From Chondrosia reniformis (lineage: Eukaryota; Porifera; Demospongiae; Chondrillida; Chondrillidae), in assembly GCA_947172415.1 (NCBI GenBank), contig OX359195.1, positions 1,364,001 through 1,428,000 of the forward strand: a DNA stretch of 64,000 nucleotides, given 5' to 3'. The notes beneath the pieces were generated by a model, which saw only the letters and a list, made by a program, of their open reading frames with translations, was not told where the DNA came from and did no database searches. Positions 25,338 to 50,672 of the stretch are shown here, piece after piece. Within the stretch, counting starts at the first letter, position 1. Every line of letters begins with the position of its first letter. The position numbers and the translations under genes are program-made.

Positions 25338-26100
25338 TGTTTATTTATCACGTGATCGTGAGCTATACAAGCACTAAATGTACGCGCATTGCACTAAAAA
25401 AGGACTGTGGGTGCGTGGATCTTCCGGATTATATCATACTCCGTGACTGAACATTTAGAGTTAATTTAGAGCAAAGTACATCTTCATAATACTTTTAAGC
25501 TAATTTTATTACTTAAACATTAAAAAGTTGTATTAAAAGTTAAAAAAAATTTTGTATTCCATATAAAGTTAACTTTTAATAAAGTTGTATCTTTATGGAA
25601 TGATGTTTGTAGGATAGAATGCTATGCAACTCATCATCAAATTTCCAATGTATTCAAGAGATTAAAAAACTAATATTGACAGTACCCAGCGATGAAGGTT
25701 TGTGATTTGTTTATATAGAATTATTTTACTAGAGTTGGGAACAAGATTCATTTCTGCTTGGAATTATTACAAAGCTCATGAGTTTCCCAAAATTATGGAA
25801 GACAATTGCAAACAATTTGTATTTTCCTAACATTGATGTCAAGTATGCCTTTTGGAAAATGTTTAGGTTATTCAAATACAGTTAGATTACACAAACCAAC
25901 TCTGCCTAATTACTAATAATCATTGGTCAAATTTACAAAGATACGTAAGTTACACTTGAGTGGCGATTGATTCAAATCTATACTAACACACAAAATTGGA
26001 GATAGAAAATGCAGTCTGTGACAGTTCATGTGTATATATCATAATCATTATACCTAGAGCAAATATACATTTTGCAGTGTTATATATAATAAGTCCTGGT
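25338..26100. other. Upstream region of the ACSBG gene, no gene seen
   Basis: The ATG at 25337 is followed upstream by a CACGTG E-box-like palindrome (25349-25354) and moderately GC-rich sequence to about 25440, the likely promoter. From there to the satellite block the sequence is AT-rich and no feature could be supported. Confidence 0.5.
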
Positions 26101-28185
26101 CTAAATCTTGATTTACATAAACATCTATGGAGCTTGACTAATAAGTTTTTTGTATACCAGAATTTAAAGTATATTGAGGGCTGTAACTCTTTCAAATGGA
26201 GAGTTTGAAAGCTAATGCTTTGTGTCAGCATTCACAGTCATCTATAGAGCATGTCTAATAAGTTTTTGAAATTTTGATGGAATTTAAATTTGTCCTATCT
26301 TTCACCATACATTAATTTTGTATATCAGAATTTAATGTACATTAAGTGCTGTAACTCTATCAAAAGTAAGGATATGAAGCTAAAACTTGGTGTCAGCATT
26401 CACAGACATCTACAGAGCATGACCTATGCATGAGATTTTGAAATTTCGAATGAACTTAATATTTGCCTAATCTCTCTCCATACATACGTATGGCGAGAGA
26501 TATATAGGGTAAATTATAAGTTCCAGAAAAATTTCCGAAACACATTAGACATGATCTATAGATGTCTGTGAATGTTGACACATAGTTTTAGCTTCACATC
26601 TCTCCTTTTGAAAGAGTTACAGCCCTCAATGTACATTAAATTCTGGTATATTAAATTAATGTATGGTGAGAGATAGGGCAAATTTTAAGTTCCAGCAAAA
26701 TCTCAAAAATTTATTGAACATGCTTTATAGATGACTGTGAATGCTGAGACAAAGTTGTAGCTTCACATCTCTCCTTTTGAAAGAGTTACAGGCCTCAATG
26801 TACATTAAATTCTGGTATATTAAATTAATGTATGGTGAGAGATAAGGCAAATTTTAAGTTGCCTCAAAATTTAAAAAAACCTATTGGACATTCTCTATAG
26901 ATGTTTGTGAAGGCTGACACAAAGGTGTAGCTTCACATCTCTCCATTCGATAGAGTTACAGCCCTCAATGTACATTAATTGAGATTGAGTGTGGCTGGTT
27001 ATACCAGTTTACGTTCATATCGGAACACCTCTCGCTAAAATCGTTTCTACATGGGACCAGAAAAGTTGGTCTCCTCCGCCAATCAAGACACTTACAGGAT
27101 TCTATCCATTTTTCCCAGTTTCTAGATGAACCACGAATACTGGATATACCTTTAAAATGGCTTGGAACGATGTACTCATCCCGAATTAACTTGATATAAT
27201 TTGACTACATTTTTCTCGCAAATACCCTATTCTTAAGTATGGAATTGCGCCAACCACAATCGTTTCCTTTTGAAATTTTCTTGTTTAAATAGAAGCGCAA
27301 AACCTTATAAAGTAGGCCTACCTGGACACATCTCTATGGTGGTAGCGGTTCCCATAGGGGTTGGTAGCGCTTAGACTCTGAAGCTGTCTCCTAATCGGTT
27401 GGTGCCATAGAGACGTGCTCACCAATAATCCGGATTTCGGGGGGGTTCCACGTAATGTGGGATTGGCATCTGATATCTTTAAGGATTCATATGAGTCGGC
27501 CATATCGAGAAGAACGAAAGTGACACCCAAAGCTCAACTCGGCAGAGCGTTACCACCGATCCCGGCCTCTGAGCGTCGTGGATGGTAGCGTTCGGTATGG
27601 TCCAACGTTTTTTCTTTGGAGTTTCGTTGGCCGTCGATCGGCAAAATTTCACTTTAACGACATCCATACAATAAATACTGCTTCAACAACAATCAAGTAC
27701 TACAGAGTGCATATCCATGTGTATAAGAAATCTTTCCAAGAGTTCTATATTTTTTTTCAGAAATATATACAGTACGGCATTTTCACTATTACTCAAGGTC
27801 GGCCATTTATAGTATTACGCAATTAGGGTTAGTTAATGTATGGTGAGAGATAGGGCAAATTTATTTAGAAATAAAAATTTCTAAAACTCTTTGGACATGT
27901 TCTATAGATGACTGTAAAGGCTGACACAAAGGTTTAGCTTCATTTGAAAGAGTTACAGCCCACAATGTACATTAAATTCTGGTATGTTAAATTAATGTAC
28001 ATATGGTGAGAGATAGGGCAAATTTTATATAAGTTACAGCAAAATTTCCGAAACACAATGGACGTGATCTATAGATGTCTGTGAATGCTTACACAAAGTT
28101 TTAGTTTCACATCTCTCCTTTTGAAAGAGTTACAGCCCTCAATGTACATTAAATTCTGGTATATAAAATTAATGTATGTACGTAC
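26100..28185. repeat. Left flank of the 170-bp block: diverged satellite, mostly inverted
   Basis: About two diverged copies in + orientation (26100-26480) end at a palindromic junction (CATACATACGTATGGCGAGA). Inverted diverged copies then run to 26975 and from 27833 to about 28180. The core element copy 1 lies between. Orientation switches back near 28180 at AATGTATGTACGTACATT. Confidence 0.85.
26975..27832 (-). mobile_element. Core element copy 1 within inverted satellite
   Basis: About 850 bp, closely matching the reverse complement of 44484-45350. It contains the same short frame beginning MADSYESLKISDANPTLRG. The junction at the 27832 end (CATTAACTAACCCTAATTGC on the - strand) matches the junction of copy 2. 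The 26975 end is truncated by about 190 bp relative to copy 2. No transposase or polymerase motif was seen. Confidence 0.75.
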
Positions 28186-31100
28186 ATTTATTTGGTATTC
28201 CAGTCTATTAATGTACATTTGGTGCTCTAACACTGTCAAATGGAAAGATATGAAGCTCAAACTTGGTGTCAGCATTCACAGACATGTATGAAACATTTCC
28301 AATGAGAATTTGAAATCTTTACATTTGCCCTATCTCTCACTATACATTAATTTGGTATTCCAGTCTTTTAATGTACATTTGGTGCTCTAACTCTGTCAAA
28401 TGGAAAGATATGAAGCTCAAACTTGGTGTCAGCATTCACAGACATGTATGAAACATTTCTAAGAAGAATTTGAAATTTTCATAAATCTTTACATTTGCCC
28501 TATCTCTCATTATACATTAATTTTGTTTTCCAGTCTTTTAATGTACATTTGGTGCTCTAACTCTGTCAAATGGAAAGATATGAAGCTCAAACTTGGTGTC
28601 AGCATTCACAGACATGTATGAAACATTTCCAATGAGAATTTGAAATTTTCATAAATATTTACATTTGCCCTATCTCTCACTATACATTAATTTGGTATTC
28701 CAGTCTATTAATGTACATTTGGGGCTCTAACTCTGTCAAATGGAAAGATATGAAGCTCAAACTTGGTGTCAGCATTCACAAACATGTATGAAACATTTTC
28801 AAGGAGAATTTGAAATTTTCATAAATCTTTACATTTGCCCTATCTCTCACTATACATTAATTTGGAATTGCAGTCTTTTAATGTACATTTGGTGCTCTAA
28901 CTCTGTCAAATGGAAAGATATGAAGCTCAAACTTGGTATCAGCATTCACAGACAAGAATGAAACATTTCCAAGAAGAATTTGAAATTTTCATAAATCTTT
29001 ACATTTGCCCTATCTCTCACTATACATTAATTTGGAATTGCAGTCTTTTAATGTACATTTGGTGCTCTAACTCTGTCAAATGGAAAGATATGAAGCTCAA
29101 ACTTGGTGTCAGCATTCACAGACATGAATGAAACATTTCCAAGAAGAATTTGAAATTTTCATAAATCTTTACATTTGCCCTATCTCTCACTATACATTAA
29201 TTTTGTTTTCCAGTCTTTTAATGTACATTTGGGGCTCTAACTCTGTCAAATGGAAAGATATGAAGCTCAAACTTGGTATCAGCATTCACAGACAAGAATG
29301 AAACATTTCCAAGAAGAATTTGAAATTTTCATAAATCTTTACATTTGCCCTATCTCTCACTATACATTAATTTGGAATTGCAGTCTTTTAATGTACATTT
29401 GGTGCTCTAACTCTGTCAAATGGAAAGATATGAAGCTCAAACTTGGTGTCAGCATTCACAGACATGAATGAAACATTTCCAAGAAGAATTTGAAATTTTC
29501 ATAAATCTTTACATTTGCCCTATCTCTCACTATACATTAATTTTGTTTTCCAGTCTATTAATGTACATTTGGGGCTCTAACACTGTCAAATGGAAAGATA
29601 TGAAGCTCAAACTTGGTGTCAGCATTCACAAACATGTATGAAAGATTTTCAAGGAGAATTTGAAATTTTCATAAATCTTTACATTTGCCCTATCTCTCAC
29701 TATACATTAATTTGGTATTCCAGTCTTTTAATGTACATTTGGTGCTCTAACTCTGTCAAATGGAAAGATATGAAGCTCAAACTTGGTGTCAGCATTCACA
29801 GACATGTATGAAACATTTCTAAGAAGAATTTGAAATTTTCATAAATCTTTACATTTGCCCTATCTCTCACTATACATTAATTTTGTTTTCCAGTCTTTTA
29901 ATGTACATTTGGTGCTCTAACTCTGTCAAATGGAAAGATATGAAGCTCAAACTTGGTGTCAGCATTCACAGACATGTATGAAACATTTCCAATGAGAATT
30001 TGAAATTTTCATAAATATTTACATTTGCCCTATCTCTCACTATACATTAATTTGGTATTCCAGTCTATTAATGTACATTTGGGGCTCTAACTCTGTCAAA
30101 TGGAAAGATATGAAGCTCAAACTTGGTGTCAGCATTCACAAACATGTATGAAACATTTTCAAGGAGAATTTGAAATTTTCATAAATCTTTACATTTGCCC
30201 TATCTCTCACTATACATTAATTTGGAATTGCAGTCTTTTAATGTACATTTGGTGCTCTAACTCTGTCAAATGGAAAGATATGAAGCTCAAACTTGGTATC
30301 AGCATTCACAGACAAGAATGAAACATTTCCAAGAAGAATTTGAAATTTTCATAAATCTTTACATTTGCCCTATCTCTCACTATACATTAATTTGGAATTG
30401 CAGTCTTTTAATGTACATTTGGTGCTCTAACTCTGTCAAATGGAAAGATATGAAGCTCAAACTTGGTGTCAGCATTCACAGACATGTATGAAACATTTCC
30501 AATGAGAATTTGAAATTTTCATAAATCTTTACATTTGCCCTATCTCTCACTATACATTAATTTGGTATTCCAGTCTATTAATGTACATTTGGGGCTCTAA
30601 CTCTGTCAAATGGAAAGATATGAAGCTCAAACTTGGTGTCAGCATTCACAAACATGTATGAAACATTTTCAAGGAGAATTTGAAATTTTCATAAATCTTT
30701 ACATTTGCCCTATCTCTCACTATACATTAATTTGGAATTGCAGTCTTTTAATGTACATTTGGTGCTCTAACTCTGTCAAATGGAAAGATATGAAGCTCAA
30801 ACTTGGTATCAGCATTCACAGACAAGAATGAAACATTTCCAAGAAGAATTTGAAATTTTCATAAATCTTTACATTTGCCCTATCTCTCACTATACATTAA
30901 TTTGGAATTGCAGTCTTTTAATGTACATTTGGTGCTCTAACTCTGTCAAATGGAAAGATATGAAGCTCAAACTTGGTGTCAGCATTCACAGACATGTATG
31001 AAACATTTCTAAGAAGAATTTGAAATTTTCATAAATCTTTACATTTGCCCTATCTCTCACTATACATTAATTTTGTTTTCCAGTCTTTTAATGTACATTT

Positions 31101-34100
31101 GGTGCTCTAACTCTGTCAAATGGAAAGATATGAAGCTCAAACTTGGTGTCAGCATTCACAGACATGTATGAAACATTTCCAATGAGAATTTGAAATTTTC
31201 ATAAATATTTACATTTGCCCTATCTCTCACTATACATTAATTTGGTATTCCAGTCTATTAATGTACATTTGGGGCTCTAACTCTGTCAAATGGAAAGATA
31301 TGAAGCTCAAACTTGGTGTCAGCATTCACAAACATGTATGAAAGATTTTCAAGGAGAATTTGAAATTTTCATAAATCTTTACATTTGCCCTATCTCTCAC
31401 TATACATTAATTTGGTATTCCAGTCTTTTAATGTACATTTGGTGCTCTAACTCTGTCAAATGGAAAGATATGAAGCTCAAACTTGGTGTCAGCATTCACA
31501 GACATGTATGAAACATTTCCAATGAGAATTTGAAATTTTCATAAATATTTACATTTGCCCTATCTCTCACTATACATTAATTTGGTATTCCAGTCTATTA
31601 ATGTACATTTGGGGCTCTAACTCTGTCAAATGGAAAGATATGAAGCTCAAACTTGGTGTCAGCATTCACAGACATGTATGAAAGATTTTCAAGGAGAATT
31701 TGAAATTTTCATAAATCTTTACATTTACCCTATCTCTCACTATACATTAATTTGGTATTCCAGTCTTTTAATGTACATTTGGGGCTCTAACTCTGTCAAA
31801 TGGAAAGATATGAAGCTCAAACTTGGTGTCAGCATTCACAGACATGTATGAAACATTTCCAATGAGAATTTGAAATTTTCATAAATATTTACATTTGCCC
31901 TATCTCTCACTATACATTAATTTGGTATTCCAGTCTATTAATGTACATTTGGGGCTCTAACTCTGTCAAATGGAAAGATATGAAGCTCAAACTTGGTGTC
32001 AGCATTCACAAACATGTATGAAACATTTTCAAGGAGAATTTGAAATTTTCATAAATCTTTACATTTGCCCTATCTCTCACTATACATTAATTTGGTATTC
32101 CAGTCTTTTAATGTACATTTGGTGCTCTAACTCTGTCAAATGGAAAGATATGAAGCTCAAACTTGGTATCAGCATTCACAGACAAGAATGAAACATTTCC
32201 AAGAAGAATTTGAAATTTTCATAAATCTTTACATTTGCCCTATCTCTCACTATACATTAATTTGGAATTGCAGTCTTTTAATGTACATTTGGTGCTCTAA
32301 CTCTGTCAAATGGAAAGATATGAAGCTCAAACTTGGTGTCAGCATTCACAGACATGAATGAAACATTTCCAAGAAGAATTTGAAATTTTCATAAATCTTT
32401 ACATTTGCCCTATCTCTCACTATACATTAATTTTGTTTTCCAGTCTTTTAATGTACATTTGGGGCTCTAACTCTGTCAAATGGAAAGATATGAAGCTCAA
32501 ACTTGGTGTCAGCATTCACAGACATGTATGAAAGATTTTCAAGGAGAATTTGAAATTTTCATAAATCTTTACATTTGCCCTATCTCTCACTATACATTAA
32601 TTTGGTATTCCAGTCTTTTAATGTACATTTGGTGCTCTAACTCTGTCAAATGGAAAGATATGAAGCTCAAACTTGGTGTCAGCATTTACAGACATGTATG
32701 AAACATTTCCAATGAGAATTTGAAATTTTCATAAATATTTACATTTGCCCTATCTCTCACTATACATTAATTTGGTATTCCAGTCTATTAATGTACATTT
32801 GGGGCTCTAACTCTGTCAAATGGAAAGATATGAAGCTCAAACTTGGTGTCAGCATTCACAAACATGTATGAAACATTTTCAAGGAGAATTTGAAATTTTC
32901 ATAAATCTTTACATTTGCCCTATCTCTCACTATACATTAATTTGGTATTCCAGTCTTTTAATGTACATTTGGTGCTCTAACTCTGTCAAATGGAAAGATA
33001 TGAAGCTCAAACTTGGTATCAGCATTCACAGACAAGAATGAAACATTTCCAAGAAGAATTTGAAATTTTCATAAATCTTTACATTTGCCCTATCTCTCAC
33101 TATACATTAATTTGGAATTGCAGTCTTTTAATGTACATTTGGTGCTCTAACTCTGTCAAATGGAAAGATATGAAGCTCAAACTTGGTGTCAGCATTCACA
33201 GACATGAATGAAACATTTCCAAGAAGAATTTGAAATTTTCATAAATCTTTACATTTGCCCTATCTCTCACTATACATTAATTTTGTTTTCCAGTCTTTTA
33301 ATGTACATTTGGGGCTCTAACTCTGTCAAATGGAAAGATATGAAGCTCAAACTTGGTGTCAGCATTCACAGACATGAATGAAACATTTCCAAGAAGAATT
33401 TGAAATTTTCATAAATCTTTACATTTGCCCTATCTCTCACTATACATTAATTTTGTTTTCCAGTCTTTTAATGTACATTTGGGGCTCTAACTCTGTCAAA
33501 TGGAAAGATATGAAGCTCAAACTTGGTGTCAGCATTCACAGACATGTATGAAACATTTCCAATGAGAATTTGAAATTTTCATAAATATTTACATTTGCCC
33601 TATCTCTCACTATACATTAATTTTGTTTTCCAGTCTATTAATGTACATTTGGGGCTCTAACACTGTCAAATGGAAAGATATGAAGCTGAAACTTGGTGTC
33701 AGCATTCACAAACATGTATGAAACATTTCCAATGAGAATTTGAAATTTTCATAAATATTTACATTTGCCCTATTCCTCACTATACATTAATTTGGTATTC
33801 CAGTCTATTAATGTACATTTGGGGCTCTAACTCTGTCAAATGGAAAGATATGAAGCTCAAACTTGGTGTCAGCATTCACAAACATGTATGAAACATTTTC
33901 AAGGAGAATTTGAAATTTTCATAAATCTTTACATTTGCCCTATCTCACACTATACATTAATTTGGTATTCCAGTCTTTTAATGTACATTTGGTGCTCTAA
34001 CTCTGTCAAATGGAAAGATATGAAGCTCAAACTTGGTGTCAGCATTCACAGACATGAATGAAACATTTCCAAGAAGAATTTGAAATTTTCATAAATCTTT

Positions 34101-37100
34101 ACATTTGCCCTATCTCTCACTATACATTAATTTGGTATTCCAGTCTTTTAATGTACATTTGGGGCTCTAACTCTGTCAAATGGAAAGATATGAAGCTCAA
34201 ACTTGGTGTCAGCATTCACAGACATGTATGAAACATTTCCAATGAAAATTTGAAATTTTCATAAATATTTACATTTGCCCTATCTCTCACTATACATTAA
34301 TTTGGTATTCCAGTCTATTAATGTACATTTGGGGCTCTAACTCTGTCAAATGGAAAGATATGAAGCTCAAACTTGGTGTCAGCATTCACAAACATGTATG
34401 AAAGATTTTCAAGGAGAATTTGAAATTTTCATAAATCTTTACATTTGCCCTATCTCTCACTATACATTAATTTGGTATTCCAGTCTTTTAATGTACATTT
34501 GGTGCTCTAACTCTGTCAAATGGAAAGATATGAAGCTCAAACTTGGTGTCAGCATTCACAGACATGTATGAAACATTTCTAGGAAGAATTTGAAATTTTC
34601 ATAAATCTTTACATTTGCCCTATCTCTCACTATACATTAATTTTGTTTTCCAGTCTTTTAATGTACATTTGGTGCTCTAACTCTGTCAAATGGAAAGATA
34701 TGAAGCTCAAACTTGGTGTCAGTATTCACAGACATGTATGAAACATTTCCAATGAGAATTTGAAATTTTCATAAATATTTACATTTGCCCTATCTCTCAC
34801 TTTGGTATTCCAGTCTTTTAATGTACATTTGGGGCTCTAACTCTGTCAAATGGAAAGATATGAAGCTCAAACTTGGTGTCAGCATTCACAAACATGTATG
34901 AAACATTTTCAAGGAGAATTTGAAATTTTCATAAATCTTTACATTTGCCCTATCTCTCACTATACATTAATTTGGAATTGCAGTCTTTTAATGTACATTT
35001 GGTGCTCTAACTCTGTCAAATGGAAAGATATGAAGCTCAAACTTGGTATCAGCATTCACAGACAAGAATGAAACATTTCCAAGAAGAATTTGAAATTTTC
35101 ATAAATCTTTACATTTGCCCTATCTCTCACTATACATTAATTTGGAATTGCAGTCTTTTAATGTACATTTGGTGCTCTAACTCTGTCAAATGGAAAGATA
35201 TGAAGCTCAAACTTGGTGTCAGCATTCACAGACATGAATGAAACATTTCCAAGAAGAATTTGAAATTTTCATAAATCTTTACATTTGCCCTATCTCTCAC
35301 TATACATTAATTTTGTTTTCCAGTCTTTTAATGTACATTTGGTGCTCTAACTCTGTCAAATGGAAAGATATGAAGCTCAAACTTGGTGTCAGCATTCACA
35401 GACATGAATGAAACATTTCCAAGAAGAATTTGAAATTTTCATAAATCTTTACATTTGCCCTATCTCTCACTATACATTAATTTGGTATTCCAGTCTTTTA
35501 ATGTACATTTGGGGCTCTAACTCTGTCAAATGGAAAGATATGAAGCTCAAACTTGGTGTCAGCATTCACAGACATGTATGAAACATTTCCAATGAGAATT
35601 TGAAATTTTCATAAATATTTACATTTGCCCTATCTCTCACTATACATTAATTTGGTATTCCAGTCTATTAATGTACATTTGGGGCTCTAACTCTGTCAAA
35701 TGGAAAGATATGAAGCTCAAACTTGGTGTCAGCATTCACAAACATGTATGAAAGATTTTCAAGGAGAATTTGAAATTTTCATAAATCTTTACATTTGCCC
35801 TATCTCTCACTATACATTAATTTGGTATTCCAGTCTTTTAATGTACATTTGGTGCTCTAACTCTGTCAAATGGAAAGATATGAAGCTCAAACTTGGTGTC
35901 AGCATTCACAGACATGTATGAAACATTTCTAGGAAGAATTTGAAATTTTCATAAATCTTTACATTTGCCCTATCTCTCACTATACATTAATTTTGTTTTC
36001 CAGTCTTTTAATGTACATTTGGTGCTCTAACTCTGTCAAATGGAAAGATATGAAGCTCAAACTTGGTGTCAGTATTCACAGACATGTATGAAACATTTCC
36101 AATGAGAATTTGAAATTTTCATAAATATTTACATTTGCCCTATCTCTCACTATACATTAATTTGGTATTCCAGTCTTTTAATGTACATTTGGGGCTCTAA
36201 CTCTGTCAAATGGAAAGATATGAAGCTCAAACTTGGTGTCAGCATTCACAAACATGTATGAAACATTTTCAAGGAGAATTTGAAATTTTCATAAATCTTT
36301 ACATTTGCCCTATCTCTCACTATACATTAATTTGGAATTGCAGTCTTTTAATGTACATTTGGTGCTCTAACTCTGTCAAATGGAAAGATATGAAGCTCAA
36401 ACTTGGTATCAGCATTCACAGACAAGAATGAAACATTTCCAAGAAGAATTTGAAATTTTCATAAATCTTTACATTTGTCCTATCTCTCACTATACATTAA
36501 TTTGGAATTGCAGTCTTTTAATGTACATTTGGTGCTCTAACTCTGTCAAATGGAAAGATATGAAGCTCAAACTTGGTGTCAGCATTCACAGACATGAATG
36601 AAACATTTCCAAGAAGAATTTGAAATTTTCATAAATCTTTACATTTGCCCTATCTCTCACTATACATTAATTTTGTTTTCCAGTCTTTTAATGTACATTT
36701 GGGGCTCTAACTCTGTCAAATGGAAAGATATGAAGCTCAAACTTGGTGTCAGCATTCACAGACATGTATGAAACATTTCCAATGAGAATTTGAAATTTTC
36801 ATAAATATTTACATTTGCCCTATCTCTCACTATACATTAATTTGGTATTCCAGTCTATTAATGTACATTTGGGGCTCTAACTCTGTCAAATGGAAAGATA
36901 TGAAGCTCAAACTTAGTGTCAGCATTCACAAACATGTATGAAAGATTTTCAAGGAGAATTTGAAATTTTCATAAATCTTTACATTTGCCCTATCTCTCAC
37001 TATACATTAATTTGGTATTCCAGTCTTTTAATGTACATTTGGTGCTCTAACTCTGTCAAATGGAAAGATATGAAGCTCAAACTTGGTGTCAGCATTCACA

Positions 37101-40100
37101 GACATGTATGAAACATTTCTAAGAAGAATTTGAAATTTTCATAAATCTTTACATTTGCCCTATCTCTCACTATACATTAATTTTGTTTTCCAGTCTTTTA
37201 ATGTACATTTGGTGCTCTAACTCTGTCAAATGGAAAGATATGAAGCTCAAACTTGGTGTCAGCATTCACAGACATGTATGAAACATTTCCAATGAGAATT
37301 TGAAATTTTCATAAATATTTACATTTGCCCTATCTCTCACTATACATTAATTTGGTATTCCAGTCTATTAATGTACATTTGGGGCTCTAACTCTGTCAAA
37401 TGGAAAGATATGAAGCTCAAACTTGGTGTCAGCATTCACAAACATGTATGAAACATTTTCAAGGAGAATTTGAAATTTTCATAAATCTTTACATTTGCCC
37501 TATCTCTCACTATACATTAATTTGGAATTGCAGTCTTTTAATGTACATTTGGTGCTCTAACTCTGTCAAATGGAAAGATATGAAGCTCAAACTTGGTATC
37601 AGCATTCACAGACAAGAATGAAACATTTCCAAGAAGAATTTGAAATTTTTATAAATCTTTACATTTGCCCTATCTCTCACTATACATTAATTTGGAATTG
37701 CAGTCTTTTAATGTACATTTGGTGCTCTAACTCTGTCAAATGGAAAGATATGAAGCTCAAACTTGGTATCAGCATTCACAGACAAGAATGAAACATTTCC
37801 AAGAAGAATTTGAAATTTTCATAAATCTTTACATTTGCCCTATCTCTCACTATACATTAATTTGGAATTGCAGTCTTTTAATGTACATTTGGTGCTCTAA
37901 CTCTGTCAAATGGAAAGATATGAAGCTCAAACTTGGTGTCAGCATTCACAAACATGTATGAAACATTTCCAAGGAGAATTTGAAATTTTCATCAATCTTT
38001 ACATTTGCCCTATCTCTCACTATACATTAATTTGGAATTGCAGTCTTTTAATGTACATTTGGTGCTCTAACTCTGTCAAATGGAAAGATATGAAGCTCAA
38101 ACTTGGTATCAGCATTCACAGACAAGAATGAAACATTTCCAAGAAGAATTTGAAATTTTCATAAATCTTTACATTTGCCCTATCTCTCACTATACATTAA
38201 TTTGGAATTGCAGTCTTTTAATGTACATTTGGTGCTCTAACTCTGTCAAATGGAAAGATATGAAGCTCAAACTTGGTATCAGCATTCACAGACAAGAATG
38301 AAACATTTCCAAGAAGAATTTGAAATTTTCATAAATCTTTACATTTGCCCTATCTCTCACTATACATTAATTTGGAATTGCAGTCTTTTAATGTACATTT
38401 GGTGCTCTAACTCTGTCAAATGGAAAGATATGAAGCTCAAACTTGGTGTCAGCATTCACAGACATGAATGAAACATTTCCAAGAAGAATTTGAAATTTTC
38501 ATAAATCTTTACATTTGCCCTATCTCTCACTATACATTAATTTGGTATTCCAGTCTTTTAATGTACATTTGGGGCTCTAACTCTGTCAAATGGAAAGATA
38601 TGAAGCTCAAACTTGGTGTCAGCATTCACAGACATGTATGAAACATTTCCAATGAGAATTTGAAATTTTCATAAATCTTTACATTTGCCCTATCTCTCAC
38701 TATACATTAATTTGGTATTCCAGTCTATTAATGTACATTTGGGGCTCTAACTCTGTCAAATGGAAAGATATGAAGCTCAAACTTGGTGTCAGCATTCACA
38801 AACATGTATGAAACATTTTCAAGGAGAATTTGAAATTTTCATAAATCTTTACATTTGCCCTATCTCTCACTATACATTAATTTGGAATTGCAGTCTTTTA
38901 ATGTACATTTGGTGCTCTAACTCTGTCAAATGGAAAGATATGAAGCTCAAACTTGGTATCAGCATTCACAGACAAGAATGAAACATTTCCAAGAAGAATT
39001 TGAAATTTTCATAAATCTTTACATTTGCCCTATCTCTCACTATACATTAATTTGGAATTGCAGTCTTTTAATGTACATTTGGTGCTCTAACTCTGTCAAA
39101 TGGAAAGATATGAAGCTCAAACTTGGTATCAGCATTCACAGACAAGAATGAAACATTTCCAAGAAGAATTTGAAATTTTCATAAATCTTTACATTTGCCC
39201 TATCTCTCACTATACATTAATTTGGAATTGCAGTCTTTTAATGTACATTTGGTGCTCTAACTCTGTCAAATGGAAAGATATGAAGCTCAAACTTGGTATC
39301 AGCATTCACAGACAAGAATGAAACATTTCCAAGAAGAATTTGAAATTTTCAAAAATCTTTACATTTGCCCTATCTCTCACTATACATTAATTTGGAATTG
39401 CAGTCTTTTAATGTACATTTGGTGCTCTAACTCTGTCAAATGGAAAGATATGAAGCTCAAACTTGGTGTCAGCATTCACAGACATGTATGAAACATTTCC
39501 AATGAGAATTTGAAATTTTCATAAATCTTTACATTTGCCCTATCTCTCACCATACGTTAATTTGGTATTCCAGTATATAAATGGACATTTGGTGCTCTAA
39601 CTCTGTCAAATGGAAAGATATGAAACTCAAACTTGGTGTCAGCATTCACAGACATGTATGAAACATTTCCAAGGAGAATTTGAAATTTTTATAAATCTTT
39701 ACATTTGCCCTATCTCTCACCATACATTATTTTGGTATACCAGTATATAAGTGTACATTTGGTGTTCTAACTATGTCAAATGGAAAGATATGAAGCTCAA
39801 ACTTGGTGTCAGTATTCACAGACATGTATGAAACATTTCCAAGAAGAATTTGAAATTTTCATAAATCTTTACATTTGCCCTATCTCTCACTATACATTAA
39901 TTTGGTATTCCAGTCTTTTAATGTACATTTGGGGCTCTAACTCTGTCAAATGGAAAGATATGAAGCTCAAACTTGGTGTCAGCATTCACAGACATGTATG
40001 AAACATTTCCAAGGAGAATTTGAAATTTTCATAAATCTTTACATTTGCCCTATCTCTCACTATACATTAATTTGGTATTCCAGTCTATTAATGTACATTT

Positions 40101-43100
40101 GGGGCTCTAACTCTGTCAAATGGAAAGATATGAAGCTCAAACTTGGTGTCAGCATTCACAAACATGTATGAAACATTTTCAAGGAGAATTTGAAATTTTC
40201 ATAAATCTTTACATTTGCCCTATCTCTCACTATACATTAATTTGGTATTCCAGTCTTTTAATGTACATTTGGGGCTCTAACTCTGTCAAATGGAAAGATA
40301 TGAAGCTCAAACTTGGTGTCAGCATTCACAGACATGTATGAAACATTTCCAATGAGAATTTGAAATTTTCATAAATCTTTACATTTGCCCTATCTCTCAC
40401 TATACATTAATTTGGTATTCCAGTCTATTAATGTACATTTGGGGCTCTAACTCTGTCAAATGGAAAGATATGAAGCTCAAACTTGGTGTCAGCATTCACA
40501 AACATGTATGAAACATTTTCAAGGAGAATTTGAAATTTTCATAAATCTTTACATTTGCCCTATCTCTCACTATACATTAATTTGGAATTGCAGTCTTTTA
40601 ATGTACATTTGGTGCTCTAACTCTGTCAAATGGAAAGATATGAAGCTCAAACTTGGTATCAGCATTCACAGACAAGAATGAAACATTTCCAAGAAGAATT
40701 TGAAATTTTCATAAATCTTTACATTTGCCCTATCTCTCACTATACATTAATTTGGAATTGCAGTCTTTTAATGTACATTTGGTGCTCTAACTCTGTCAAA
40801 TGGAAAGATATGAAACTCAAACTTGGTGTCAGCATTCACAGACAAGTATGAAACATTTCCAAGAAGAATTTTGAAATTTTCATAAATCTTTACATTTGCC
40901 CTATCTCTCACCATACGTTAATTTGGTATTCCAGTATATAAATGGACATTTGGTGCTCTAACTCTGTCAAATGGAAAGATATGAAACTCAAACTTGGTGT
41001 CAGCATTCACAGACATGTATGAAACATTTCCAAGGAGAATTTGAAATTTTTATAAATCTTTACATTTGCCCTATCTCTCACCATACATTATTTTGGTATA
41101 CCAGTATATAAGTGTACATTTGGTGTTCTAACTATGTCAAATGGAAAGATATGAAGCTCAAACTTGGTGTCAGTATTCACAGACATGTATGAAACATTTC
41201 CAAGAAGAATTTGAAATTTTCATAAATTTTTACATTTGCCCTATCTCTCACTATACATTAATTTGGTATTCCAGTCTATTAATGTACATTTGGGGCTCTA
41301 ACTCTGTCAAATGGAAAGATATGAAGCTCAAACTTGGTGTCAGCATTCACAGACATGTATGAAACATTTCCAATGAGAATTTGAAATTTTCATAAATCTT
41401 TACATTTGCCCTATCTCTCACTATACATTAATTTGGTATTCCAGTCTATTAATGTACATTTGGTGCTCTAACTCTGTCAAATGGAAAGATATGAAGCTCA
41501 AACTTGGTGTCAGCATTCACAAACATGTATGAAACATTTCCAAGGAGAATTTGAAATTTTCATCAATCTTTACATTTGCCCTATCTCTCACTATACATTA
41601 ATTTGGAATTGCAGTCTTTTAATGTACATTTGGTGCTCTAACTCTGTCAAATGGAAAGATATGAAGCTCAAACTTGGTATCAGCATTCACAGACAAGAAT
41701 GAAACATTTCCAAGAAGAATTTGAAATTTTCATAAATCTTTACATTTGCCCTATCTCTCACTATACATTAATTTGGTATTCCAGTCTTTTAATGTACATT
41801 TGGTGCTCTAACTCTGTCAAATGGAAAGATATGAAGCTCAAACTTGGTGTCAGCATTTACAGACATGTATGAAACATTTCCAATGAGAATTTGAAATTTT
41901 CATAAATCTTTACATTTGCCCTCTCTCTCACTATACATTAATTTGGTATTCCAGTCTATTAATGTACATTTGGTGCTCTAACTCTGTCAAATGGAAAGAT
42001 ATGAAGCTCAAACTTGGTGTCAGCATTCACAAACATGTATGAAACATTTCCAAGGAGAATTTGAAATTTTCATCAATCTTTACATTTGCCCTATCTCTCA
42101 CTATACATTAATTTGGAATTGCAGTCTTTTAATGTACATTTGGTGCTCTAACTCTGTCAAATGGAAAGATATGAAGCTCAAACTTGGTATCAGCATTCAC
42201 AGACAAGAATGAAACATTTCCAAGAAGAATTTGAAATTTTCATAAATCTTTACATTTGCCCTATCTCTCACTATACATTAATTTGGTATTCCAGTCTTTT
42301 AATGTACATTTGGTGCTCTAACTCTGTCAAATGGAAAGATATGAAGCTCAAACTTGGTGTCAGCATTCACAGACATGTATGAAACATTTCTAAGAAGAAT
42401 TTGAAATTTTCATAAATCTTTACATTTGCCCTATCTCTCACTATACATTAATTTTGTTTTCCAGTCTTTTTATGTACATTTGGTGCTCTAACTCTGTCAA
42501 ATGGAAAGATATGAAGCTCAAACTTGGTGTCAGCATTCACAGACATGTATGAAACATTTCCAAGGAGAATTTGAAATTTTCATCAATCTTTACATTTGCC
42601 CTATCTCTCACTATACATTAATTTGGAATTGCAGTCTTTTAATGTACATTTGGTGCTCTAACTCTGTCAAATGGAAAGATATGAAGCTCAAACTTGGTAT
42701 CAGCATTCACAGACAAGAATGAAACATTTCCAAGAAGAATTTGAAATTTTCATAAATCTTTACATTTGCCCTATCTCTCACTATACATTAATTTGGTATT
42801 CCAGTCTTTTAATGTACATTTGGTGCTCTAACTCTGTCAAATGGAAAGATATGAAGCTCAAACTTGGTGTCAGCATTCACAGACATGTATGAAACATTTC
42901 TAAGAAGAATTTGAAATTTTCATAAATCTTTACATTTGCCCTATCTCTCACTATACATTAATTTTGTTTTCCAGTCTTTTTATGTACATTTGGTGCTCTA
43001 ACTCTGTCAAATGGAAAGATATGAAGCTCAAACTTGGTGTCAGCATTCACAGACATGTATGAAACATTTCCAATGAGAATTTGAAATTTTCATAAATATT

Positions 43101-44330
43101 TACATTTGCCCTATCTCTCACTATACATTAATTTGGTATTCCAGTATATTAATGTACATTTGGGGCTCTAACTCTGTCAAATGGAAAGATATGAAGCTCA
43201 AACTTGGTGTCAGCATTCACAAACATGTATGAAACATTTTCAAGGAGAATTTGAAATTTTCATAAATCTTTACATTTGCCCTATCTCTCACTATACATTA
43301 ATTTGGAATTGCAGTCTTTTAATGTACATTTGGTGCTCTAACTCTGTCAAATGGAAAGATATGAAGCTCAAACTTGGTATCAGCATTCACAGACAAGAAT
43401 GAAACATTTCCAAGAAGAATTTGAAATTTTCATAAATCTTTACATTTGCCCTATCTCTCACTATACATTAATTTGGAATTGCAGTCTTTTAATGTACATT
43501 TGGTGCTCTAACTCTGTCAAATGGAAAGATATGAAGCTCAAACTTGGTGTCAGCATTCACAGACATGTATGAAACATTTCCAAGAAGAATTTGAAATTTT
43601 CATAAATCTTTACATTTGCCCTATCTCTCACTATACATTAATTTGGTATTCCAGTCTTTTAATATACATTTGGTGCTCTAACTTTTTCAAATGGAAAGAT
43701 ATGAAGCTCAAACTTGGTGTCAGCATTCACAGACATGAATGAAACATTTCCAAGAAGAATTTGAAATTTTCATAAATCTTTACATTTGCCCTATCTCTCA
43801 CTATACATTAATTTGGTATTCCAGTCTTTTAATGTACATTTGGTGCTCTAACTCTGTCAAATGGAAAGATATGAAGCTCAAACTTGGTATCAGCATTCAC
43901 AGACATGTATGAAACATTTCCAAGAAGAATTTGAATTTTTCATAAATCTTTACATTTGCCCTATCTCTCACTATACATTAATTTGGTATTCCAGTCTTTT
44001 AATATACATTTGGTGCTCTAACTTTTTCAAATGGAAAGATATATATGAAGCTCAAACTTGGTGTCAGCATTCACAGACATGAATGAAACATTTCCAAGAA
44101 GAATTTGAAATTTTCATAAATCTTTACATTTGCCCTATCTCTCACTATACATTAATTTGGTATTCCAGTCTATTAATGTACATTTGGTGCTCTAACTCTG
44201 TCAAATGGAAAGATATGAAGCTCAAACTTGGTGTCAGCATTTACAGACATGAATGAAACATTTCCAAGAAGAATTTGAAATTTTCATAAATCTTTACATT
44301 TGCCCTATCTCTCACCATACATTAACGTAA
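28186..44330 (+). repeat. Main 170-bp satellite array, about 95 units, higher-order repeats
   Basis: Each 170-bp unit includes AATGTACATTTGGTGCTCTA, GTCAAATGGAAAGATATGAA and TTTGCCCTATCTCTCACTAT. Linker variants mark subtypes: TTGGTATTCCAGTCTATTA, TTGGTATTCCAGTCTTTTA, TTGGAATTGCAGTCTTTTA and TTTTGTTTTCCAGTC. The subtype order repeats with period 8 (about 1360 bp), for example 34128-35477 against 35478-36837. Around 41480-42890 a 3-unit period (510 bp) is seen. One unit near 34800 lacks 10 bp and one near 40871 has an extra T. A 73-aa open frame in each unit overlaps the next and is not a gene. Confidence 0.97.
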
Positions 44331-44483
44331 ATTGACATTTAATGCTGTAACTCTGTCAAATCCGTAAATACGAAGCTTAAACTTGGTATCTACATTCACA
44401 GACATGTATGACACATTTCCAAACAGTTTTAGAAATTTTGATTTGTACATAAATATACCTTATATCTGATCATACATTAACTA
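44331..44483. repeat. Diverged terminal satellite unit before core element
   Basis: A diverged 170-bp unit (AATGCTGTAACTCTGTCAAA) leads into the core at CATACATTAACTAAACTCAA. Confidence 0.7.
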
Positions 44484-45545
44484 AACTCAAATTGCGTTAT
44501 ACTATAAATGGCCGACCTATAGTAGGTGTAAGAGTGAAAATGCGGTACTGTATATATTTCTAAAAAAATAGAACTCTTTGAAAAATTTCTTATACACATG
44601 GATATGCACTGTGTAGTACTTGATTGTTGTTGAAGCAGTATGTATCCACATATATTATATGGATGTCGATAAAGTGAAATTTTGCCGATCGACGGCCAAC
44701 GAAACTCCAAAGAAAAGAAGTTGGACCATACCGAACGCTACCATCCGCGACGCTCAGAGGCCGGGATCGGTGGTAACGCTCTGCCGAGTTGAGCTTTGGG
44801 TGTCACTTGCGTGAGAAGAACCAGTTCTTCTCGATATGGCCGACTCATATGAATCCTTAAAGATATCAGATGCCAATCCCACATTACGTGGAACCCCCCC
44901 GAAATCCGGATTATTGGTGAGCACGTCTCTATGGCACCAACCGATTAGGAGACAGCTTCAGAGTCTAAGCGCTACCAACCCCTATGGGAACCGCTACCAC
45001 CATAGAGATGTGTCCAGGTAGGCCTACTTTATAAGGTTTTTTGCCTCTATTTAAACCACAAAATTTCGAAAGAAAACGGTTGTGGTTGGCGCAATTCCAT
45101 ACTTAAGAATAGGGTATTTGCGAGAAAAATGTAGTCAAATTATATCAAGTTAATTCGGGATGAGTGCATCGTTCCAAGCCATTTCAAAGGTATATCCAAT
45201 ATTCGTGGTGCATCTAGAAATTGGGAAAATTGGATAGAATCCTGTAAGTGTCTTGATTGGCGGAGGAGACCAACTTTTCTGGTCCCATGTAGAAACGATT
45301 TTAGCGAGAGGTGTTCCGATATGAACGTAAACTGGTATAACCAGCCACACTCAATCTCAATTGCAGTAATAGCATAATGGCTACCTGCCTCTATGTAAAG
45401 ACCTTCTGACAGCGCGTTCTGCACTGTCCCTACGTGTTTCTAGTTGCCCCATTCATGTCAAAACATTTTAACTTCGTATGCCGATAATTTGCATAATAGT
45501 ATCGCACGATATATATGCTACACATTTAAGGTCGTATAGTAGAAA
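44484..45545 (+). mobile_element. Core element copy 2, the most complete copy
   Basis: About 1060 bp of non-satellite sequence inside the array. It has two short frames, one at 44659-44811 (DVDKVKFCRSTANETPKKRS) and one at 44836-45021 (MADSYESLKISDANPTLRG), plus a - strand frame at 45140-45424. No product is recognised. The right junction to satellite (AGAAATTTAATGTACATTAG) is shared with copy 3 and the left junction with copy 1, so this copy has both authentic ends. No terminal inverted repeat or target duplication is evident. Confidence 0.75.
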
Positions 45546-47225
45546 TTTAATGTACATTAGAGTGCTGTAGCTCTGTCAAATGGAAAGATATGAAGCTCAA
45601 ACTTGGTGTCAGCATTCACAGATATGTATGAAACATTTCCAATGAGAATTTGAAATTTTCATAATCCTTTACATTTGCCCTATCTCTCACTATACATTAA
45701 TTTGGTATTCCAGTCTATTAATGTACATTTGGTGCTCTAACTCTGTCAAATGGAAAGATATGAAGCTCAAACTTGGTGTCAGCATTCACAAACATGTATG
45801 AAACATTTCCAAGGAGAATTTGAAATTTTCATAAATCTTTACATTTGCCCTATCTCTCACTATACATTAATTTGGAATTGCAGTCTTTTAATGTACATTT
45901 GGTGCTCTAACTCTGTCAAATGGAAAGATATGAAGCTCAAACTTGGTATCAGCATTCACAGACAAGAATGAAACATTTCCAAGAAGAATTTGAAATTTTC
46001 ATAAATCTTTACATTTGCCCTATCTCTCACTATACATTAATTTGGTATTCCAGTCTTTTAAGGTACATTTGGTGCTCTAACTCTGTCAAATGGAAAGATA
46101 TGAAGCTCAAACTTGGTGTCAGCATTCACAGATATGTATGAAACATTTCCAATGAGAATTTGAAATTTTCATAAATCTTTACATTTGCCCTATCTCTCAC
46201 TATACATTAATTTGGTATTCCAGTCTATTAATGTACATTTGGTGCTCTAACTCTGTCAAATGGAAAGATATGAAGCTCAAACTTGGTGTCAGCATTCACA
46301 AACATGAATGAAACATTTCCTAGAAGAATTTGAAATTTTCATAAATATTTACATTTGCCCTATCTCTCACTATACATTAATTTAGTATACCAATATATAA
46401 ATGTACATTTGGTGCTCTAATTCTGTCAAATGGAAAGATATGAAGCTCAAACTTGGTGTCAGCATTCACAGATATGTATGAAAAATTTCCAATGAGAATT
46501 TGAAATTTTTATAATTATTTACATTTGCCCTATCTCTCACTATACATTAATTTAGTATTCCAGTCTATTAATGTACATTTGGGGCTCTAACTCTGTCAAA
46601 TGGAAAGATATGAAGCTCAAATTTGGTGTCAGCATTCACAGATATGTATGAAACATTTCCAAGGAGAATTTGAAATTTTCATAAATCTTTATATATATTT
46701 GCCCTATCTCTCACCATACATTAGTTTAGTATACCAATATATAAATGTACATTTGGTGCTTTAATTCTGTCAAATGGAAAGATATGAAGCTCAAACTTGG
46801 TGTCAGCATTCACAGATATGTATGAAACATTTCCAATGAGAATTTGAAATTTTCATAAATCTTTACATTTGCCCTATCTCTCACAATACATTAATTTAGT
46901 ATTCCAGTCTATTAATGTACATTTGGTGCTCTAACTCTGTCAAATGGTAAGATATGAAGCTCAAACTTGGTGTCAGCATTCACAGGTATGTATGAAACAT
47001 TTCCAATGAGAATTTGAAATTTTCATAATTATTTACATTTGCCCTATCTCTCACTATACATTAATTTGGTATTCCAGTCTTTTGATGTACATTTGGTGCT
47101 CTAACTTTGTCAAATGGAAAGATATGAAGCTCAAACTTGGTGTCAGCATTCACAGACATGAATGAAACATTTCCAAGAAGAATTTGAAATTTTCATAATT
47201 ATTTACATTTGCCCTATCTCTCACT
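45546..47225 (+). repeat. 170-bp satellite, second + array, about 10 units
   Basis: Same unit and orientation as the main array, more diverged toward the right (AGATATGTATG variants, TTTAGTATACCAATATATAA linkers). Ends at the palindromic switch CTATACGTATGG. Confidence 0.93.
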
Positions 47226-48924
47226 ATACGTATGGTGAGAGATAAGGCAAATTTTAAGTTGCCTCAAAATTTAAAAAACCTATTGGACATTCTCTATAGA
47301 TGTCTGACAAGGCTGACACAAAGGTGTAGCTTCACATCTCTCCATTCGATAGAGTTACAGCCCTCAATGTACATTAAATTCTGGTATATTAAATTAATAT
47401 ATGGTGAGAGATAGGGCAAATTTTAAGTTCCCGCAAAATTTCAAAAACCCATAGGACATACTCTATAGAAGGCTGTGAATGCTTACACAAAGGTTTAACT
47501 TCACATCTCTCCATTTAATTGAAAGAGTTACAGCCCTCAATGTACATTAAATTCTGGTATATAAAATTAATGTACAAACGTATGGTGAGAGATAGAGCAA
47601 ATTTTAGGTTCCAGCAAAATCTCAAAAACTCTTTGACATGCTCTATAGATGTCTATGAATGCTGACACAACGTTTTAGCTTCACATCTCTCCTTTTGAAA
47701 GAGTTACAGGCCTCAATGTACATTAAATTCTGGTATATTAAATTAATGTACGTATGGTGAGAGATAGAGCAAATTTTGAGTTCCATTAAAATTTCAAAAA
47801 CTTTTTTGACATGCTCTATAGATGTCTATGAATGCTGACACAAAGGTTTAGCTTCACATCTCCCCTTTTGAAAGAGTTACAGCCCTCAATGTACATTAAA
47901 TTCTGGTATATTAAATTAATGTACTTACGTATGGTGAGAGATAGGGAAAATTTTAAGTTCTAGCAAAATCTCAAAAACTTTTTGGACATGCTTTATAGAT
48001 GTTTATGAATGCTGACACAAAGTTTTAGCTTCACATCTCTCCTTTTGAAAGAGTTACAGGCCTCAATGTACATTAAATTCTGGTATATTAAATTAATGTA
48101 TGGTGAGAGATAGGGCAAATTTTAAGTTACAGCAAAATTTCTGAAACACATTGGACGTGATCTATAGATGTCTGTGAATGCTGACACAAAGTTTTAGCTT
48201 CATATCTCTCCTTTCGAAAGAGTTAAAGCCCTCAATGTACATTAAATTCTGTATATTAAATTAATGTATGGTGAGAGATAAGGCAAATTATAAGTTCCAG
48301 CAAAATTGCAAAAACCCATAGGACATGCTCTATAGATGTCTATGAATGCTGACACAAATGTTTTAGTTTCACATCTCTCCTTTTGAAAGAGTTACAGCCC
48401 TCAATGTACATTAAATTCTGGTATATTAAATTAATGTATGGTGAGAGATAGGGCAAATTTTAAGTTCCAACAAAATCTCAACAACTTATTGGACATGCTC
48501 TATAGATGACTGTGAATGCTGACACAAAGGTTTAGCTTCATATCTTTACTTTTGTTAGAGTTACCACCCTCAATGTACATTAAATTCTGGTATACGAAGT
48601 TAATGTATTGTGAAAGATAGGGCAAATTTTACGTTCCAACAAAATTTAAAAAACCCATAGGACATGCTCTATAGAGGGCTGTGAATGCTGACACAAAGGT
48701 TTAGCTTCACATCTCTCCATTTGAAAGAGTTACAGCCCGCAATTTACATTAAATTCTGGTATATAAAATTATTGTATGGTGAGAGATACGTATGGCAAAT
48801 TCGAGTAGATATGAAAATTTGCAAAACTCATTGGAAGCCTTTCATACATCTCTGTGAATACTTACACAATGTTTCTTCTTCATATCTCTCCATTTGACAG
48901 AGCTACAGCACTCTAATGTACATT
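47226..48924 (-). repeat. Inverted diverged 170-bp satellite, about 10 units
   Basis: Units read as the reverse complement of the main array (GAAAGAGTTACAGCCCTCAA, TGGTGAGAGATAGGGCAAAT) with much higher divergence. The last unit shows the same satellite-to-core junction as copy 2 (right side). Confidence 0.92.
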
Positions 48925-49624
48925 AAATTTCTACTATACGATCTTAAATGGTGTAGCATATATATCGTGCGATACTATTATGCAAATTATCGGCACACGA
49001 AGTTAAAATGTTTTACATGAATTATGGGACAACTAGAAACACGCAGGGACAGTCCAGAACGCACCTGTCAGAAGGTCTTTACATAGAGGCAGGTAGCCAT
49101 TATGCTATTACTGCAATTGAGATTGAGTGTGGCTGGTTATACCGGTTTACGTTCATATCGGAACACCTCTCGCTAAAATCGTTTCTACATGGGACCAGAA
49201 AAGTTGGTCTCCTCCGCCAATCAAGACACTTACAGGATTCTATCCATTTTTCCCAGTTTCTAGATGAACCACGAATATTGGATATACCTTTAAAATGGCT
49301 TGGAACGATGTACTCATCCCAAATTAACTTGATATAATTTGACTACATTTTTCTCGCAAATACCCTATTCTTAAGTATGGAATTGCGCCAACCACAATCG
49401 TTTCCTTTTGAAATTTATTGTTTAAATAGAAGCGCAAAACCTTATAAAGTAGGCCTACCTGGACACATCTCTATGGTGGTAGCGGTTCCCATAGGGGTTG
49501 GTAGCGCTTAGACTCTGAAGCTGTCTCCTAATCGGTTGGTGCCATAGAGACGTGCTCACCAATAATCCGGATTTCGGGGGGGTTCCACGTAATGTGGGAT
49601 TGGCATCTGATATCTTTAAGGATT
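48925..49624 (-). mobile_element. Core element copy 3
   Basis: About 700 bp matching copy 2 inverted, with the satellite junction at the 48925 side intact. It is cut off at 49624, just after the codons for SLKISD, where an unrelated palindrome begins. Confidence 0.75.
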
Positions 49625-49667
49625 GACCAGATATTAACTTGTATATATACAAGTTAATATCTGGTCA
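49625..49667. repeat. Perfect palindrome at the break point of core copy 3
   Basis: GACCAGATATTAACTTGTAT is followed directly by its reverse complement, forming an arm of about 20 bp with almost no loop. It sits exactly where homology to the core stops. Confidence 0.85.
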
Positions 49668-50410
49668 TTCATAAGAGCACCGGTAGTACAGTGAGGCGAG
49701 AAGCAAGCCTACAAAACCACCAAATACGCCAAAAGTTGGATCGATTACGATCGAGGACATTCGTTTTTTTCTCTTTTTTTACTTTCATCACACAGAGTTG
49801 AGTATAAATAGTCCATTTTGACATGACCATTCAGGCCTGCCAGCGTGGAGCCTCAGGTAAGGGAGTAAGTCCTTACTCGTTGGCTTGGTAGTGTCTAGGT
49901 TCCGTAGCTGCCCTGTATCGGTTGGTGCCATGGGGATGTGCTCACCAATTATCGATTTATCGATACAACGGAACCCGGGGAGGGATAAGGCCGGTTCTGT
50001 CACTCTGTGACTACCAAAGCCGAAACTGCACGAGTTAGGCGTTACCAACGATCCTGGCCCCAGACGACCAGCGATGGAAGGACGGCTCGCATTGTGGATG
50101 GTAAACGTGAACTCCCTGCGTCGAGCAAAATCCAAGTCACACCTCCTCGTGGTGCTCGACGGTAACAGCAGTCTCTGCTGGCTAACGTGACTGGTCTTTT
50201 TTCTTCTATCTTTGCTGATTATTGTAAAAGATTTGGAAACCTTTCCAAATGCTGTTTTTTTTCTTTTTTTCTTATCGTCAGCAAATCGCGATTACTTTGG
50301 AACCACCCACTGAGTATCCACACACACTTGGGACGCGCTTTTTATTTTTTTTCATAACGCTAGAAACTTTGTGTATCGCGACAAATGTGATTCCACATTA
50401 ATAGAATTTG
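49668..50410. repeat. Second, diverged element related to the satellite core
   Basis: On the - strand (49788-50135) a 115-codon frame shows a stretch related to the core: GGTGAGCACATCCCCATGGC here against GGTGAGCACGTCTCTATGGC in the core, followed in both by ACCAACCGAT. GGATCGTTGGTAACGCC against GGATCGGTGGTAACGCT is a second shared block. No known domain recognised. 50160-50410 is T-rich with no feature seen. Confidence 0.5.
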
Positions 50411-50539
50411 TAGAAGAAGAAGGGAAGTGTGCCCCTCTACCAGTCCACTGCTAAGAGTGGCAAGCACGCTGATCCGGCGTGGCGAGTTGCTTGGCGAGAG
50501 AACGACGTGGATAACAACCTCAACTTCTACTCAGTGTCC

Positions 50540-50672
50540 TCTGATGGCAGAGCCAGAGTACGTAGTATGGATAATAGTTAAGGTATGTGATGACAGAGTT
50601 GTATATACGTAGTATGGATAATAGTTAAGGTATGTGATGGTAGAGTTGTAGTATGGACAAAAGTGAACGTGT
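50540..50672 (+). repeat. About 47-bp duplication of the DNAI1 exon end, three copies
   Basis: GATGGCAGAG, GATGACAGAG and GATGGTAGAG each begin a copy containing GTAGTATGGATAATAGTTAA or a variant. Only the third keeps the family-like reading DGRVVVWTKVN. Confidence 0.6.

Follow-up and report, generated by a model that had tools for sequence, protein, structure and literature searches.

The window analysed here, 64,000 nucleotides of the sponge Chondrosia reniformis (contig OX359195.1, positions 1,364,001 to 1,428,000), contains a block of a 170-bp satellite and three copies of a non-satellite core. Judged by its sequence, the core is an RNA gene, designated RNA-A, which is encoded on the strand complementary to the core sequence as written. 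The satellite units are arranged head to tail; a single row comprises 111 of them, with 90% matches. Their runs were delimited with a profile hidden Markov model (HMM). The three cores correspond to those that an earlier note on this DNA had described. The composition of the block, including a promoter element that resembles a proximal sequence element (PSE), is as follows:

26154 to 26485, plus strand: 170-bp satellite
26487 to 26979, minus strand: 170-bp satellite joined to core copy 1
26977 to 27824: core copy 1 (core positions 7-879), core in minus orientation, RNA-A sense on the plus strand
27252, 27286 and 27314, plus strand: beginning of the promoter element, TATA box and predicted start of RNA-A in copy 1
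27833 to 28162, minus strand: 170-bp satellite
28201 to 44480, plus strand: main 170-bp satellite array (96 HMM hits)
44484 to 45545: core copy 2, full length, plus orientation
44718 to 45025, minus strand: RNA-A transcribed block of copy 2 (predicted start and end), conserved across 46 places
45047 to 45055, minus strand: TATA box TTTAAATAG of RNA-A copy 2
45074 to 45087, minus strand: PSE-like promoter element AACCACAANNNTTT of RNA-A copy 2, a motif also found before U2 and RNase P genes
45540 to 47230, plus strand: 170-bp satellite adjoining core copy 2
47229 to 48933, minus strand: 170-bp satellite
48928 to 49624: core copy 3, core in minus orientation, cut inside RNA-A, RNA-A sense on the plus strand

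The left junction between satellite and core (CATTAACTAA..AATTGCG) is common to copies 1 and 2 and the right junction (TTTAATGTACATTAGAGTGC) to copies 2 and 3, in agreement with the earlier observation. Copies 1 and 3 each lack the junction of the other because copy 1 misses core positions 880-1062, the upstream 183 bp, and copy 3 misses positions 1-368. In the window and in the dispersed copies printed, the core occupies a fixed position within the satellite unit, with CATTAACT on one side and GTATAG on the other. Eight dispersed copies document that there is no clear loss of satellite bases at this point, with the exception of locus L026, where the left core end adjoins non-satellite sequence. 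The left junction of listed close matches (e.g. L025, 4530-4550) reads CTAACCCTAA, a telomere-like decamer that may be due to chance and from which window copy 2 differs. The direction of the satellite switches at window positions 26483 and 47229, at CATACGTATG-type palindromes, and comparable switches are present in L023 and L038.

The layout of RNA-A comprises a ACCACAANNNTTT element, a TATA box located 28-30 bp before the predicted start, an RNA of about 315 nt and a T-run. The predicted transcript would measure 310-320 nt, start with AGGCCUACC and terminate in a final U. This organization corresponds to that of small nuclear RNA (snRNA) genes, with a PSE about 55-65 bp upstream, a TATA box near -30 and a T-run in the form typical of RNA polymerase III (Pol III). 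We compared it with the upstream DNA of the genome's own genes for U2 (six matches, of which the weak sixth was left out; at least two of the five read are near-copies), RNase P (one match), MRP (one) and U6 (two). All five U2 genes read have the ACCACAANNNTTT motif at -56, and the sole RNase P RNA match has it at -65. The gap between CCACAA and TAAATA amounts to 26 nt in both RNA-A and RNase P, and the two promoters agree at 15 of 20 positions at a fixed offset, a value that none of 20,000 shuffles attained. Core-bearing DNA (the window and L021-L040; 528,000 strand-bases) contains 39 occurrences of the motif, 34 of them in RNA-A promoters. On account of the TATA box, the T-run and the likeness to RNase P, we infer that RNA-A is probably read by Pol III.

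RNA-A could not be assigned to a known RNA. Even at a lax threshold Rfam yielded one match of 15.3 bits, compared to a threshold of 60, and an identity with RNase P, MRP, U2 or U6 was rejected, as the best genomic matches to these RNAs are located elsewhere. No match to 7SK (RF00100) was found in the genome, but the control genomes gave none either, and a shared 30-mer had no exact match in viral and prokaryotic collections. A protein-coding core was rejected as well: a reading frame that precedes RNA-A and has 145 aa in L024 extends over at least 120 codons without a stop in 23 of the 48 aligned rows, and none of the three open frames scanned matched a Pfam domain. About 160-bp internal repeats are visible by eye upstream of the RNA-A promoter in core2 (L022, 2400-2720), with one copy in core1 (about positions 271-400 of the core consensus).

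The conservation of RNA-A was investigated in an alignment of 48 distinct sequences from 55 hits of 800 or more aligned bases. The sequences represent 46 places on 12 contigs and were selected because they matched copy 2 best or its left end exactly. The RNA block (AGGCCTACC..CCAACTTTTTTT) exhibits a mismatch to the consensus of 0.0036, compared to 0.025 in the flanks. The respective values are 0.000 for the PSE (AACCACAA), 0.002 for the TATA box and 0.002 for a 40-bp block further upstream, with 0.06-0.08 in the stretches between the promoter elements. PSE, TATA box and start are in register at all 46 places, and a T7 run follows the RNA block in 39 of them. With 18 private substitutions in 318 RNA sites versus 154 in 584 sites of the flanks, such changes are about five times scarcer in the RNA block (p 1e-13; odds ratio 0.21). 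In three divergent core2 copies the RNA block matches at 318/318, 310/316 and 313/316 positions, with flanks at 73-80%.

Contrary to the description in the earlier note, the core is by no means unique. A search of the whole genome (117,379,552 bases on 15 contigs) returned 980 first-look candidates, and the 40 that were scored are all at least 95% alike and distributed over 11 of the 15 contigs. Pattern counts with up to three mismatches, for which all reversed controls were 0, resulted in 278 occurrences of the left core end and 223 of the left satellite/core junction (two separate, unpaired tallies), 881 of an RNA-A 38-mer and 15,303 of the satellite signature. We read twenty 10-kb loci chosen by the core, four shorter core loci and one tandem RNA-A period in addition to the window; the resulting sample of RNA-A sites was picked by core1, except for L066. 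Satellite is present on both sides of 36 of the 38 sites (within 1,100 bp upstream and 700 bp downstream), so that the dispersed loci with the same junctions predicted in the earlier note do exist. The two exceptions are L026, where other sequence separates the satellite from the core on one side, and the truncated window copy 3. Both arms run in the same direction (minus/minus) at 26 of the 38 sites. The fixed orientation of the core relative to the satellite that had been claimed holds for all three window copies but is only a local rule, because L023, L027, L038 and L066 carry reversed satellite on one or both sides.

The joint history of core and satellite is documented by the units next to the core. 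Ordinary satellite units have a likeness of 0.895 within and 0.793 between loci. The first unit to the right of the core shows the opposite trend: its likeness amounts to 0.868 for its counterparts at other loci versus 0.823 for the array in which it lies. Of 28 copies 26 could be tested, and in 19 of these the unit resembles its counterparts more. Among the window copies, the first unit of the run that adjoins core copy 2 is closer to its own array, unlike the genome-wide tendency. The first right-hand unit hence tends to travel with the core, which speaks against repeated insertion of the core into satellite and bears out the earlier proposal that both are parts of one larger unit.

The explanation that we consider probable is that RNA-A is an amplified snRNA-type RNA gene with a satellite spacer, multiplying and spreading together as one DNA unit. 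RNA-A would represent a structured noncoding RNA gene with PSE, TATA box and T-run terminator, and the 170-bp satellite would serve as its spacer. Within clusters, gene and adjoining satellite may multiply by unequal exchange between same-direction arms, which fits a cluster whose three RNA-A sites follow each other at intervals of exactly 2,466 bp (one period read). New sites would be reached by the insertion of excised or circular pieces that had been opened often, but not always, near the unit boundary, or alternatively by transposition using this boundary. Either conversion or selection acting on the RNA would hold the promoter elements and the RNA nearly constant, with spacer and satellite left to drift.

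The low divergence of the RNA block may also reflect gene conversion or copying through RNA, with individual copies devoid of a host function. This explanation is possible, but in our estimate doubtful, and it can coexist with the amplified RNA gene outlined above. More than 800 sites are many for one-by-one selection, and visibly decayed copies occur in the window and in L027. However, the untranscribed promoter elements are equally constant (PSE, 0.000; block 401-440, 0.002) and separated by variable sequence, which is unexpected for a conversion tract and favors selection as the cause of the constancy.

An origin from a nonautonomous DNA transposon with long tandem-satellite arms, either of the foldback type or inserting at TTAA, which carries an RNA gene and whose arms gave rise to the arrays, appears rather unlikely. 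The array ends do show a preference for the unit boundary: the first 25 unit positions contain 15 of 28 upstream ends and the last eight contain 11 of 26 downstream ends, corresponding to binomial p values of about 3e-6 and 1e-8 against a uniform distribution. These values are inflated, since a short piece of a further unit escapes detection and the profile method thereby draws array ends to those of the model; about five of the 11 boundary-type downstream ends continue into degenerate satellite. The remaining 13 upstream and 15 downstream ends are scattered elsewhere in the unit, and no single constant outer end was found for the core1 loci among the 28 and 26 ends read. L025 and L026 begin and end at TTAA, but this is also a satellite motif and no target duplication was demonstrated. 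Opposite-direction arms were observed in core2-type loci and in two 93% core variants, yet the predominant same-direction arms argue against this scenario, and terminal inverted repeats made of satellite were rejected given that the core1 arms are direct. The three open frames scanned provided no protein domain, and an autonomous partner was not searched for. The interpretation in the earlier note is supported in part: satellite and core do form one larger unit, which may or may not be a mobile element, and the proposed growth of the array from the element's own repeats is hypothetical. An RNA gene with its promoter does not figure in that interpretation. Finally, a site-specific element that inserts repeatedly at one point of existing satellite units is very improbable, for despite the fixed junction point and orientation, the seamless placement of the core between satellite bases and a left first unit that in 16 of 23 copies resembles its own array more, independent insertions would bring local flanks, and the likeness of the right first unit to other loci contradicts this.

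Several observations weigh against RNA-A as an amplified gene. Its transcription is a prediction from sequence, and the folding energy is ordinary (z -1.26; 0.15 for RNA-B, see below). All three window copies look damaged: copy 1 also lacks some bases inside the RNA, the T-run of copy 2 is interrupted and copy 3 is cut short. Decayed copies were under-sampled because the 46 places had been chosen by their likeness to copy 2. The promoter motif is absent from the U6 and MRP genes (0 of 2), and the TATA box leaves the polymerase unsettled, since a TATA-like box near -30 is also present in the U6 and MRP genes and in two of the U2 genes. In seven of 26 copies the right first unit resembles its own array more than its counterparts elsewhere, and the majority of left first units behave likewise. 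The preference of the array ends for the unit boundary could indicate a defined mobile unit instead.

Tandem arrays of 5S and snRNA genes combine a conserved RNA gene with a drifting, repetitive spacer. The RNA-A unit resembles them in its conserved gene, drifting spacer and joint amplification, but RNA-A attains no Rfam threshold, its spacer is a 170-bp satellite with 15,303 signatures and the units are dispersed over the genome. RNase P, U6 and 7SK are genes with external Pol III promoters. RNA-A conforms to this class with its PSE plus TATA box, T-run and size of about 300 nt, the RNase P promoter being the closest match found; unlike RNase P, MRP and U6, it is present in hundreds and matches no family. 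The retroelements Cassandra, Helenus and Ajax are reportedly long terminal repeat (LTR) elements with a small RNA gene-like sequence. The Chondrosia unit is likewise a repeat with such a sequence, but no LTR structure was seen in it, although no dedicated test was run. In the frog satellite PcP190, whose repeats measure about 190 bp, a conserved part of 120 bp is similar to the transcribed Pol III 5S gene and lies beside a hypervariable part (PMC11675491). The combination of a conserved part resembling a Pol III gene with a variable part is comparable, but the Chondrosia array is interrupted by a whole gene with its promoter. Tetris of Drosophila virilis is described as a dispersed element whose internal tandem repeats of about 220 bp are located in terminal inverted repeats and also form long arrays (PMC4079207). 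The Chondrosia unit shares the dispersal and the tandem repeats (170 bp) that build long arrays, but differs from this description in its direct core1 arms and the absence of a single constant end. No paper joining Chondrosia with satellite DNA was found in our literature search.

A second RNA family, RNA-B, is located downstream of core copy 3:

49833 to 50204, plus strand: RNA-B, a separate repeat outside the satellite unit; its TATA box occupies 49803-49811, and its 5' domain is related to RNA-A
50120 to 50192, plus strand: hepatitis delta virus (HDV)-like ribozyme near the 3' end of RNA-B (RF02682; 47 bits, gathering threshold 44)

An RNA-B 38-mer has 80 genomic matches, 68 of them exact. 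The spacing between TATA box and start is 30 bp, as in RNA-A, but no PSE was recognized by eye before RNA-B, and in the three loci whose flanks were read (window, L024, L040) RNA-B is not in direct contact with satellite. The RNA-B block of 14 further sources is 96-99% like that of the window, with 84-97% in their longer matches. The ribozyme reaches the Rfam threshold in the window and in 12 of these sources, with L053 and L055 below; it is HDV-like according to the model match, and its self-cleavage is putative. RNA-B is found within 10 kb of core1 at six of 47 places versus 0.9 expected (47 of the 80 RNA-B places, C1-C8, and 100 listed of the 278 core places were used), but three of the six belong to one cluster.

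The 5' domain of RNA-B aligns with RNA-A. In 22 distinct 5' domains of both families RNAalifold recovered the outer stem on its own, and one pair of this stem occurs as A-U, G-U and G-C. The structure that we named, including a proposed pseudoknot, has 97.7% of its cells paired, compared to 91.5% in shuffled and at most 46% in slid versions. The percentage paired, the doubly changed cells and the covariation score surpassed all 500 shuffles and all slid versions, but the other two of the five measures stay within the range of the shuffles (198/500 for the number of doubly changed pairs, 475/500 for that of pair types), and much of the covariation signal is a single split between families A and B.

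Further observations concern the surroundings of RNA-B. A perfect palindrome marks the start of the repeat (window 49626-49669), and the homology of L024 begins in its middle. A fragment resembling a dynein intermediate chain was spotted by eye beside RNA-B within a shared 1.4-kb stretch (window 50400-50560; L024, 8731-8890). The first 30 positions of RNA-B (window 49833-49862), AGGCCTGCCAGCGTGGAGCCTC plus RG followed by GTAAGG, resemble by eye the short exon and 5' splice site of a spliced leader. Elsewhere in the window, positions 8895-12758 hold a separate tandem array with 27 copies of a 142-bp unit.

It is conceivable, but unlikely, that RNA-A is a selfish snRNA-type RNA that drives the spread of its own gene and satellite and is kept intact for the persistence of the copies, with the 3' end of RNA-B matured by its built-in HDV-like ribozyme.

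RNA-A represents a candidate for an animal RNA family recognized from sequence alone, with an independently matched snRNA-type promoter and a presence at hundreds of sites, and the ACCACAANNNTTT motif suggests a PSE for a sponge. The dispersal of satellites through chromosome arms is an open question. Here, a satellite harbors a gene that may explain its spread, and the RNA-A system makes this question testable.

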